Of a stretch of DNA of 64,000 bases, positions 3,800 through 62,215 are shown in pieces. The notes beneath the pieces were generated by a model. That model was given only the letters and a program-made list of their open reading frames with translations, had not been told where the DNA came from and made no database searches. The stretch is from Salinirubrum litoreum (GTDB lineage Archaea; Halobacteriota; Halobacteria; Halobacteriales; Haloferacaceae), in assembly GCF_020567425.1 (NCBI RefSeq), contig NZ_JAJCVJ010000001.1, forward strand, positions 1,550,001 through 1,614,000, given 5' to 3'. Within the stretch, counting starts at the first letter, position 1; the number at the start of each line of letters is the position of its first letter. The translations under genes were made by a program, and so were the position numbers.

Positions 3800-4400
3800 C
3801 CGTGACTGTTACTGCATCCGGACCGCAGACCGCGACAGCACAGCAACCGCTACGATTGCTAGCGCGAGGAACCGCACCGCAGACAGCACAGCACCGCGCC
3901 TCGTCCTCCCCAGCCTCGGGACTGCTCTCGGCACCGCCCGCAGTCCCTTCCTCGCGCACGTTCCTCGCGCGCGCCGAATTTCGGACGAAAGCGCACGACT
4001 CCACCCGTCACCCGACAACTCCGACAACCCGGAATCCGACAGGACGCGATCTGGTGGCGGCCGGAACCGAGCAGTGTCCGAGCGACAGCGAGGACCTGCG
4101 CGCAGTCCGAGTCGCCAGCAGTCGGGGAGGGGTGGGGAGTACTGCGACTGCCGGGTTCCAGACCTGCGACGACTCGTCGGGTGACGACCCACGCGACGTG
4201 ATGGGTCACGACGTCCGGGTGGGACGTTCACCTCTCGTCGTCTGCGACTACTTTGTCCGAGTTGTCTCCAACTCATTCACCCGAGTCCCCTACAACGTAT
4301 CCACCCGACCTCTCTCCGGCAGGGCCGACCACCCGCTCTACACCGTATCCGACCGCGTCCACGTCACGAGACCCACGCCGAAAGAGACAGCGTCGAGAAC
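3800..4400 (+). repeat. Mosaic hairpin repeat, copy 1
   Basis: Intergenic, no credible gene. It starts with low-complexity CGACAGCAC-type sequence, then the conserved TCCTCCCCAGCCTCG flank. The core hairpin follows at 3918-3947: stem GGGACTGC/GCAGTCCC around the loop TCTCGGCACCGCCC, then a CCTCGCGC flank. A second module near 4113-4160 (CAGCAGTCG...CGACTGCCG) is shared with copy 6 near 51.3 kb. It ends with TTCACCTCTCGTCGTC, a variant of the family's terminal box. The orientation opposes the neighbouring genes, so this is not a gene leader. Confidence 0.8.
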
Positions 4401-29589: not shown

Positions 29590-30110
29590 TCAGTGACGAC
29601 CGTGACGAGCGCGTGACACCGACCCGAAACGTCTCTGTGACGGCGAAACCAGCGTGCTCCACGGCGACACTGCGACCGCTGACCGTACCGCCATAGCGAC
29701 GGTCGACGGCACTGCCACAGTCACAGCGACCGCGACGATTGCTAGCGCACCTCTGCCACGACCGCACGGCACAGCGACAGCACCGCACCGCGACCGCCTC
29801 CGCGACAGCACCGCACCTCGGTCCTCCCCAGCCTCGGCGGGCAACGAGAGCGCCCGCCTCCACCGTCAGCGGCACGCTCTGAGGAGCCTTCGTCACCGGC
29901 GCTCCGCGTCGGTTGCTGGCGAGAGCTTTGCTCTCGCTCTGTCGTCGGCGCGCCGCGCCGACTGCCAGCGAGACCCTCGGTCTCGCCCTGTTCGGTTCCC
30001 TCGGGAAGACCTCGCGCGCGTCGGAGTCGCGCGCGCCGAGTGGTCGGCAAGAGCCCGTGCCACACCAGCCACCAGAGACACCCCGACCGCGACGTCCCGA
30101 GCGTCTGCGC
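29590..30110 (+). repeat. Mosaic hairpin repeat, copy 3
   Basis: Lies between convergent genes. After the GACAGCACCGCACC low-complexity start and TCCTCCCCAGCCTCG flank comes a core hairpin with a different, shorter loop: GGCGGGC at 29836-29842, loop AACGAGAGC, GCCCGCC at 29852-29858. Then come perfect hairpins at 29919-29937 (GCGAGAGC/GCTCTCGC), 29944-29962 (GTCGGCGC/GCGCCGAC) and 29968-29986 (GCGAGACC/GGTCTCGC), each with a 3-nt loop. The terminal CTTTCACC box is not seen. Confidence 0.78.
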
Positions 30111-38814: not shown

Positions 38815-39370
38815 GGAGTGAAACTTCCCGCGAGACATGCCTTCGGTCGAGTGAGTCGCGGACAGCGAGAGGTGAAAGCCCCCGCGCTCTCGACCCCCTT
38901 TCAGTGCCACCCGGTGGAATCTGCGAAAGCGCACGCAACACCCGGTGGACCAGTCGGTTTCAGCGCGAGCGCCTCCCTGCAACCGTCGGCTTGTCTGAGC
39001 CGGGTGCATCCCGGCGAAGTGCGCGGCACAGAGGTCGCGCCAGCCCATTCGACTGGTGAGTCTGTCGTGAGTTCCAGTGGAAAGTCGGCGGTCGCAGTGC
39101 GGTCGGCGCGTGCGCGACCTCGACGCGCACGCGAGGGAGTCGGATGCGGGCGGTGCGGAGAGCATCCGACGAGGCTGGGGAGGGGCGAGGTGCGGTGCTG
39201 GGCTGTGCAGTCGCGGTGCGGATGCGGTGCGGTCGCGGGTCCGCTGGTAGCCGCGCTACGACGAGTAGCGGTGCTGATGCTGTTCGCGGTGCTGTCGTGG
39301 TCGCGGTCTGCGGTGCTGTCGCGGTCAGCGATACTGCCACAGTCGCAACCGAAACCGTACACTACCCACT
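38815..39370 (-). repeat. Mosaic hairpin repeat, copy 4 (reverse orientation)
   Basis: Between two minus-strand genes, element on the minus strand. The terminal box (GGTGAAAG...CTCTCGACC, 38871-38900) abuts CTTTCAG directly, so the interior cassette array is deleted here. The core hairpin at 39139-39170 is GTCGGATGC with GCATCCGAC around a loop that reads TCTCCGCACCGCCC on the element strand. A TCCTCCCC-type left flank follows. A GCCGGGTGCATCCCGGC hairpin and the GCGAAAGCGCACGCAAC module are also present. Confidence 0.8.
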
Positions 39371-39485: not shown

Positions 39486-41174
<1,689 letters not shown>

Positions 41175-44284: not shown

Positions 44285-45060
44285 TCGGGAGACGGGGGAG
44301 GTGGTGACGACTGCGACTGCGACTGAGGTGATACCCGTGACGACACCGCAAACCGCGACAGCGACGACTACTGCACCGCGAACTGCGACAGCACCAGCAC
44401 CGCTACTCGTCGTAGCGCGGCTCCCAGCGGAACCGCCACAGCACCGCACCGCATCCGCACCGCGACTGCACAGCCCAGCACCGCACCTCGTCCTCCCCAG
44501 CCTCGCCGGATGCTCTCGGCACCGCCCGCATCCGGCTCCCTCGCGCGCGTCGAGTCGCGCACGCCGACCACCACAGCACTGCAATACGGGAACGAAATTT
44601 CGACTCACGTCACAGGTACCAGTCGAACGGGCTGGCGCGGCTTCATGCCGCGCCGACGGTCGCAGGGAGGCGCTCGCGCTGAAACCGACTGGTCCACCGC
44701 GAGTTGCATGCGTCCCCGCGAACTCTCCGGGTGGGACTGAAAGGGGCCGGCGTCTCGATCCGGCCCCGACGCCGTAAGCAAGGCGAGACCGGAGGTCTCG
44801 CCAGCAGACGGGCGAGGCTCGGCTCGCCCGTCAGCACCGCAGGGAGGGCGGTCGGCTTGCCGACCGCCCGACTGAGGAGCGCAACAAGTCGCGGCGGTCT
44901 TCGTGAGCGAAGCGAACGAAGGCTCGTCAGAGCTTGCCTCTGACGGTGGTCGAGACGCCGGGGGCTTTCACCCCTCGTTGTCACCGACCGACTCGACACC
45001 AGCCACACCACCAACCGACTCGCCACCGACCGAGTACACGTCCGAACTCCGAACCACTAT
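44285..45060 (+). repeat. Mosaic hairpin repeat, copy 5 (near full length)
   Basis: Between divergent rio1 and the methyltransferase gene. It has the low-complexity start and TCCTCCCCAGCCTC flank; the core hairpin is GCCGGATGC/GCATCCGGC with loop TCTCGGCACCGCCC at 44505-44536. Then comes a GGCGCGGC-TTCAT-GCCGCGCC hairpin. The outer stem is GAAAG-GGG-CCGGCGTCTCGA (44739-44758) with TCGAGACGCCGG-GGG-CTTTC (44950-44969). Inside are perfect hairpins at 44782-44802, 44807-44832, 44846-44869 and 44925-44945. Confidence 0.85.
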
Positions 45061-50984: not shown

Positions 50985-51385
50985 GTGTCGTCGTGGTGAA
51001 ATCCCGGCAGAACGTGACTGCATCTGCGACAGCAACGCGACTGGTTCGGAGCGCACCTCTGCCACGACCGCTACCGCAACAGGTCTCCAAACCGCACCCG
51101 CGACAGCAACGCTACTCGTCGTAGCGCACCGACGAGAGGCCCGCGACTGCAACCGCGACAGCACCGCACCGCGACAGCACCGCACCGCGACCGCACCTCG
51201 GTCCTCCCCAGCCTCGACCGCCTCTCGGCACCGCCCGGCGGTCTCCCTCGCGCGTTCCTCGCGCGCCGGGTTGTCTGTGAAAGCGCACACCACACCGGTC
51301 ACTCGACCACACGTCGCCAGCAGTCGGGGAGGGTCGGGGACGACTGCGACTGCTGGGTTCCCGATCGAGCCGACACCGAAACCGG
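50985..51385 (+). repeat. Mosaic hairpin repeat, copy 6
   Basis: Between convergent genes. Core hairpin at 51216-51243: GACCGCC/GGCGGTC with loop TCTCGGCACCGCCC, preceded by TCGGTCCTCCCCAGCCTC and followed by CTCCCTCGCGCG. A later segment near 51318-51354 has a 9-bp stem CAGCAGTCG...CGACTGCTG, the module shared with copy 1. The outer stem and cassette array are absent. Confidence 0.8.
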
Positions 51386-58439: not shown

Positions 58440-59110
58440 GTGAATCGGTTGCAGACGATTCGGGTGAATACGTCGTGAGGTGCTCGGTCGAATCGGTTGT
58501 CGGGAACTCGGTCGAATACGTCGTGAACGACGAGGGGTGAAAGCCCCCGCGCTCTCGACCTCCCGCGACTCGGGGCGCTCCTCAGTCAGGCGGGCCGGCA
58601 AGCCGGCTCGCCTTCCCTGCGGTGCTACCGTCGTCGGGGGAGGATCGAGAGCGCGGCCCCTTTCAGTCCCGCCCGGTGGATTCTGCGAAAGCGCACGCAA
58701 CTCGCGGTGGACCAGTCGGATCAGCGCGAGCGCCTCCCTGTAACCGTCGGCGCGACACGGAGGTCGCGCCAGCCCATTCGACCGGTACCTCTGTCGTGAG
58801 TCGAATTTCTGCTGTGCTGTCGCGGTGCAGTCGGCGCGTGAGAAGCGTCTTCGTGAGTGAAACGAACAAGGCGAGACCGGAGGTCTCGCCAGCAACCGGC
58901 GCGAAGCGCCGGTGACGACGGTCAGCGAGAGCGTGCCTCTCGCCAGACGCGAGGGAGGTCTGCGGGCGGTGCTGAGAGCAGACCGAGGCTGGGGAGGACC
59001 GAGGTGCGGTCGCGGTCTGCTGGGCTGTCGGGGTCGCGGTCCACGAGTCGGTCGCAGTCGCGGCCTGCGGTGCTGTCGTGGTTGTGGTCCAAGTAGCAAT
59101 CCCAGCCACG
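58440..59110 (-). repeat. Mosaic hairpin repeat, copy 8 (reverse orientation)
   Basis: Between divergent genes, element on the minus strand. The outer stem is GAAAG...CCGCGCTCTCGACC (58539-58560) and TCGAGAGCGCGG...CTTTC (58645-58664), 12 paired bases that differ from copies 5 and 9 by compensating changes. The core hairpin at 58957-58984 is GGTCTGC/GCAGACC with loop TCTCAGCACCGCCC on the element strand. Other perfect hairpins include GGCGAGACC-GGA-GGTCTCGCC and GGCGCGAC-ACGGAG-GTCGCGCC. Confidence 0.85.
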
Positions 59111-61309: not shown

Positions 61310-62215
61310 CTGGATCAGTGACCGCGACTGTGACCGTATCGTAGACTGCGACAGCGGCCGTATCGTAGACTGCGACAGCGACCGCACCGCAGACCGCACC
61401 AGCACCGCTACTCGATCCGGGACAACCGGACTATTCGACCGCGACCGCGACATCCCTGCACCGCAACCGCGACCGCACCTCGTCCTCCCCAGCCTCGGCG
61501 GACGCTCTCGACACCGCCCGCGTCCGCCTCCCTCGCGCGTTCCTCGCGTCTGGCGAGAGACAAGCTCTCGCTGACCGTCGTCACCGGCGCTTCGCGCCGG
61601 TTGCTGGCGAGACCTCCGGTCTCGCTCTGTTCGGTTCCCTCACGAAGACGCCGACCGCACCGCGACAGCGTCGCCGGTTTCCCACCACTACTCACGTCAC
61701 ACTCCACCAGTCAGATGGGCTGGCGCGACCTCCGTGTCGCGCACTTCGCCGGGATGCACCCGGTTCAGGCAAGCCGACGGTCACAGGGAGGCGCTCGCGC
61801 TGATCCGACTGGTCCACCGGGCGTTGCATGAGTCTCCGCGAAATCACCGGGTGGGACTGAAAGGGGCCGGCGTCTCGACCCCGCCCCGACGATGTAAGCA
61901 GAGCAAGAGCGAAGCTCTCGCCAGCAGTCGGGCGACTCCCGTGTCGCCCGACAACACTGGACTGAACGAGGGCGCGGAGCGTAGCGACGCGCCCTCGTGA
62001 GGGAAGCGCGCACCGAGTGTCTCGTGAGGGAACCGAACGAGACTCAGCGAGAGCTTCGCTCTCGCCAGACGCGGCGGGTCGAGACGCCGGGGGCTTTCAC
62101 CGCTTGTCGTCTGCAACTCACTCTACAGCAACCAGCTCGGCCGGGAGCTTTCACCTCCTGCCCTCTGCAACTCACTCGACCGAGTTCACCACGTAGCAAA
62201 CAGAACCGACACACG
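61310..62215 (+). repeat. Mosaic hairpin repeat, copy 9 (full length)
   Basis: Between convergent genes. Core hairpin GGCGGACGC/GCGTCCGCC with loop TCTCGACACCGCCC at 61497-61528. Then hairpins at 61553-61571, 61583-61601 and 61607-61625, and GCGCGAC-CTCCGT-GTCGCGC at 61723-61742. The outer stem GAAAG-GGG-CCGGCGTCTCGACC (61859-61880) pairs with GGTCGAGACGCCGG-GGG-CTTTC (62077-62098). Within it lie perfect hairpins at 61927-61952, 61967-61997 and 62047-62065. It ends with a second CTTTCACCTCC box near 62148-62160. Confidence 0.87.

Follow-up and report, generated by a model that had tools for sequence, protein, structure and literature searches.

A noncoding, dispersed multi-hairpin element of haloarchaeal spacers in which the fold, not the sequence, appears to be preserved

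REP, BIME and REPIN elements of enterobacteria and pseudomonads are short intergenic palindromes, modular in build and present in many copies and in both orientations, and the same features are seen in the spacer repeat of Salinirubrum litoreum described here. By general features, not by sequence, the repeat can also be likened to ERIC/IRU, BOX, RUP and NEMIS (noncoding, hairpin-forming, intergenic), for which we know of no swapping of hairpins as cassettes at fixed loci. No match was found in Rfam, either for the window (the whole 64,000-nt stretch that was analysed) at gathering score or for four loci at E 0.1. In the open-access PMC literature the elements are undescribed and the motif strings occur in unrelated papers only; other papers could describe them. 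The haloarchaeal spacer element is apparently undescribed.

The core hairpin fills one slot in a larger spacer element of haloarchaea, CTC-NNN-CCTCCCCAGCC-TC-hairpin-TCCCTCGC, with a CCGC/CAGC-rich body upstream of the core and a second small hairpin downstream. With moderate confidence, we regard this hairpin as the central slot of a dispersed, noncoding spacer element that contains several hairpins and has a selected fold and cassette exchange, acting as a putative RNA of the G-rich strand. The six hairpins on which the original prediction was based are present at positions 3918-3947, 39139-39170, 44505-44536, 51216-51243, 58957-58984 and 61497-61528, and are flanked by CCTCCCCAGCCTC and TCCCTCGC or TTCCTCGC. 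The copies and modules of the window are as follows.

3905..3955, plus strand: copy 1, CCTCCCCAGCCTC, 8-bp stem GGGACTGC/GCAGTCCC with loop TCTCGGCACCGCCC, then TTCCTCGC
29823..29866, plus strand: copy 3, CCTCCCCAGCCTC, stem GGCGGGC/GCCCGCC with a different loop and no TCCCTCGC after it
39131..39183, minus strand: copy 4, 9-bp stem GTCGGATGC/GCATCCGAC with loop TCTCCGCACCGCCC
44330..44491, plus strand: upstream body of copy 5, rich in CCGC/CAGC, with CACCGCACCTC directly before the core; mosaic with respect to stem type
44492..44544, plus strand: copy 5, sister of copy 4, 9-bp stem GCCGGATGC/GCATCCGGC
44541..44567, plus strand: second small hairpin HpC, adjoining the core of copy 5, GCGCGCGTCGAGTCGCGCACGC
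44729..44747, plus strand: GGGTGGGACTGAAAGGGGC module near copy 5, in orientation opposite to the core; it corresponds to the HpA flank in relatives
51203..51251, plus strand: copy 6, 7-bp stem GACCGCC/GGCGGTC
58949..58997, minus strand: copy 8, 7-bp stem GGTCTGC/GCAGACC
61484..61536, plus strand: copy 9, 9-bp stem GGCGGACGC/GCGTCCGCC with loop TCTCGACACCGCCC
38894 (minus), 58656 (minus) and 61849 (plus): further GGGTGGGACTGAAAGGGGC copies
about 58880-58955 (minus), about 61540-61620 (plus) and 29866-29960 (plus): a second repeat, following several cores

The loop motif was matched 11 times with up to two mismatches, with 2.2 matches expected by chance (0 of 100 shuffles). Across the 4.06-Mb genome the core pattern has 51 sites, while the reversed pattern has none, and 42 of the 51 sites carry perfect stems of 7, 8 or 9 bp. 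Forty of the 48 copies parsed with a 14-nt loop are perfectly paired; a single G.T occurs in three and a single A.C in four, and one stem is broken. The other three sites comprise two perfect copies with loop CACTGCCC and one place without such a hairpin. The claim that every stem pairs without mismatch is consequently true of the six hairpins listed for the window but does not extend to the genome. Likewise, the loop is invariant, as was proposed, within the genome or lineage of S. litoreum, but other genera have other stems and other loops. Copy 3 does combine a paired stem with another loop.

The 21 perfect stem types differ by at least 38 paired substitutions, counted within length classes. 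Standard pairs make up 95.8% in the 7-bp class and 97.9% in the 9-bp class, and the covariation scores, computed on ungapped alignments per length class with related copies counted as they are, were 0.870 (0.156 when shuffled, at most 0.23 with slid partners) and 0.655 (0.230 and at most 0.11), respectively. The predicted covariation is thereby far above both controls in the genome-wide copies. Copies 4 and 5 of the window are clear sister copies in which one stem position differs by a whole pair, T-A vs C-G. The folding z-score of the core region was unremarkable and uninformative.

All 48 classified copies are intergenic, and none is spanned by a gene predicted with a home-made gene caller. 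No open frame runs through the core, as stems of 7, 8 and 9 bp shift its length by 2 or 4 nt and no predicted gene crosses it in the 48 copies. Twenty-eight copies lie between co-oriented genes (17 -/- and 11 +/+), 14 between convergent and six between divergent genes. A transcription terminator or insulator between genes would suit the intergenic setting, the excess of convergent over divergent spacers and the convergent trxB-ilvA spacer treated below. As a general explanation it is improbable, since more than half of the copies stand between genes of one orientation (plus or minus), the elements are not regularly followed by a T-rich tract, and a terminator would not need so long a multi-hairpin plan. 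Such a role is possible for some copies, but the range of contexts does not fit it overall.

There are 26 different 5' arms among the 48 copies. The bodies around them show no greater likeness among same-stem than among different-stem copies (permutation p 0.89 upstream and 0.20 downstream), with mean upstream identity of 78% in same-stem and 79% in different-stem pairs, while the arms are identical in 26 of 30 same-stem pairs. This indicates that the hairpin travels independently of the body.

Elements of Halorubrum allow the same site to be followed between species. In the spacer between genes that we take to be trxB and ilvA, a readable element is at the same place in 16 species with 12 different hairpins, and upstream of a presumed hel308 (the MT-hel308 spacer, MT standing for a putative methyltransferase) 18 species have the element with 17 different hairpins; all four names were read from translated starts and are not database annotations. 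Within the first five pairs, a hairpin's own arms form on average 4.94 Watson-Crick pairs at trxB-ilvA and 4.78 at MT-hel308, but only 2.69 and 3.19, respectively, when the 3' arm is taken from another species. Upstream of a chaperonin gene, eight named or numbered Halorubrum carry eight different hairpins, two of them with one A.C-type departure. In some species (L138, L152) the element is absent or damaged at these loci. Both arms do change together at the same locus. In most cases the whole cassette is replaced, but single compensated pairs also occur, as in window copies 4 and 5 and in the orthologues L193 and L196, which differ by an A-T to C-G exchange. Identical hairpins were found at different loci in different species, e.g., GTCAGTCGCC...GGCGACTGAC, which indicates that whole hairpins are exchanged as cassettes. 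The picture is that of an element resident at fixed loci with exchangeable hairpins.

The window has a gene of its own at 39486-41156 (minus), which we presume from its sequence to encode a chaperonin (thermosome-like); the closest protein, the Halogranum rubrum counterpart, shares 92% identity, in keeping with a haloarchaeon near Halogranum.

Dispersal in up to about 180 copies, occurrence in both orientations and patchy distribution would also be expected of a mobile repeat (MITE or REP-like), in which the hairpin is a transposase signal and pairing is selected through mobility. This explanation has a low probability. The element holds the same position at three loci across Halorubrum, and such long residence at fixed sites disfavours active transposition. 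Also, the Y1 transposase family (PF01797) had no match in the element-rich genomes G013 and G184 (more than 100 copies), while genome G005 has 10 Y1 matches and no element. These counts do not support dependence on Y1 transposase.

In genome G176, 161 CCTCCCCAGCCTC-N-TCCCTCGC places contain inverted repeats that vary widely in sequence and loop. In genome G184, part of the slots have the layout TGCG-X-T-Y-CTC...TGCG-Y'-T-X'-CTCG, where X with X' and Y with Y' are antiparallel Watson-Crick pairs in 49 of 50 cells around a fixed T.T; when distinct rows only are counted, 15 of 16 cells pair (permutation 0/10,000). Mismatches fixed between covarying pairs disfavour simple arm-copying, as copying would erase them. 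It is therefore very improbable that replication template switching or arm-to-arm conversion keeps the palindromes perfect by mutation alone with no selection, even if perfect stems of unrelated sequence and whole hairpins replaced at fixed loci are what such a process would leave. The identical hairpins at unrelated loci also speak for exchange from copy to copy and not for new palindromes. The original prediction had offered selection for pairing and joint rewriting of both arms as alternatives; both appear to act, but pure arm-copying cannot account for G184. Selection on structure plus cassette exchange is most likely.

Of 292 genomes of the class, 70 contain the motif CTCNNNCCTCCCCAGCC (controls gave 0 to 2 hits per strand), and every Halorubrum species sampled (genus assigned via named loci) has 10 to 177 copies. 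The exact core pattern of S. litoreum had no match in the searched genome contigs. Viral contigs gave 34 scattered pattern matches, which are likely mostly chance. A plasmid blast with the S. litoreum element returned short matches only, likely of low complexity, and with the Halorubrum element two plasmid matches, with no annotated feature under either.

Several other repeats neighbour the element. The stretch at 58606-58676 (minus) of the window, around a GGGCGGGACTGAAAGGGGC module, shares about 81-85% identity with plasmid spacers, most of them unannotated, of Halobaculum, Haloplanus, Halorientalis and others; GGGCGGGACTGAAAGGGGC is a very widespread module of its own. The second repeat of the feature list has two hairpins with variable stems, CTGGCGAGAG...CTCTCGCTGACC...CCGGCGCTTCGCGCCGG or a related form, and it interrupts the Halorubrum elements at L144, L173, L174, L179 and L047. 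A tandem array at G184:C3:123165-123261 has six copies of CTCAAACCTCCCCAGCC, the conserved left motif, with 16-bp spacing, and the spacers at L139, L173 and L174 have tandem units of about 55-80 nt, TTTATAAAT...AAGCCCCAGCCG, left of the Halorubrum element. Left of the slot (L044, L140, L174 and others) is HpA, a long hairpin whose stem averages 17.9 bp and often has C.C mismatches; its 44 copies have 32 different 13-nt left arms. HpA follows the same variable-stem principle as the slot hairpin.

One-sided departures from pairing bear on the question of strand. In HpA, departures that read as G.T on the G-rich and A.C on the C-rich strand were counted 13 times and the reverse five times; in the slot the counts, with two loop-closing pairs left out, were 9 and 5 in the same direction. 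Summed with two at the chaperonin locus, they give 24 vs 10 (p 0.024, related copies counted), a modest asymmetry that does no more than hint at the G-rich strand. In G184 the fixed mismatches, when read on that strand, are purine-purine. In RNA folding of the G184 slots, the G-strand recovers the covarying pairs more often and is the more stable in 22 of 34 slots; with DNA energy parameters it is so in 18 of 34, and neither strand is clearly favoured. A TATA-like box lies +12 to +26 nt past the right end, mostly at 18-20, in 27 of 41 Halorubrum elements and in one of 41 in a control interval. It is also found in spacers between gene ends and its direction is ambiguous; no TATA box at a fixed position was found in the S. 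litoreum elements. The evidence points weakly to action as a putative RNA from the G-rich strand, and the G184 folding, the wobble asymmetry and the Halorubrum TATA-like box place the RNA level ahead of the DNA level, an order that is suggestive and falls short of proof.

The structure could instead act in DNA, as a cruciform or single-stranded hairpin to which a nucleoid, topoisomerase or recombination protein binds. REP/BIME elements are bound by gyrase, and GCTTCGC/GCGAAGC, very stable DNA mini-hairpins, form the centres of many hairpins in relatives. The occurrence of elements in all gene orientations and the one-sided changes of S. litoreum, which have no strand preference (3 vs 4), agree with such a role as well. 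We hold it to be rather unlikely, as both the wobble asymmetry and RNA folding point to one strand and the TATA-like box is positioned in Halorubrum.

Under the favoured reading of a selected fold with cassette exchange, purifying selection on the fold would maintain the pairing. The folded form would act on the G-rich strand, most probably as an RNA transcript. The paired stems may present the unpaired conserved motifs GGCTGGGGAGG and GAGGGA to a putative protein partner. Judged by the pattern of replacement, cassettes probably move between dispersed copies by homologous exchange (gene conversion), with the conserved flanks as a guide. In both S. litoreum and Halorubrum the slot is an inverted repeat with conserved flanking motifs and variable stems, and it appears to be the fold, not the sequence, that is kept.

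A broader proposal is put forward tentatively: haloarchaeal genomes may each carry up to about 180 noncoding genes or chromosomal sites whose structural slot, at a fixed locus, is continually refitted with interchangeable hairpin cassettes. Their identity would reside in fold and flanking motifs, and homologous exchange would let them share one pool of hairpins. This would be a widespread class of elements in well-sequenced archaea left blank by standard annotation, as the absence of Rfam matches illustrates. It would also be a natural experiment on the maintenance of structure through replacement of sequence, with a different working hairpin at one and the same locus in each of dozens of species, and selection vs mutational palindrome repair becomes directly testable with strain-level data.

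When compared with known systems, the element departs from REP/BIME in two respects: REP stems are largely conserved within a family, whereas the stem here is free to vary, and REP is tied to a Y1 (RAYT) transposase, whereas two element-rich genomes here are without a Y1 match. In comparison with MITEs, the haloarchaeal element is at the same site across species. Compensatory changes above controls, as in structured noncoding RNAs, were found both among genome-wide copies and at orthologous loci. Iron-responsive elements, with a fixed loop and a free stem, are similar to the variable paired stem and constant loop of S. litoreum, but the loop is constant only in this lineage, and constancy across genera is outside the hairpin. 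As in integron attC sites, conservation is of the fold and not of the sequence; unlike attC sites, the elements occupy fixed spacers, and no cassette arrays or integron integrase were noted. The element works like a structural repeat of the REP or attC type.
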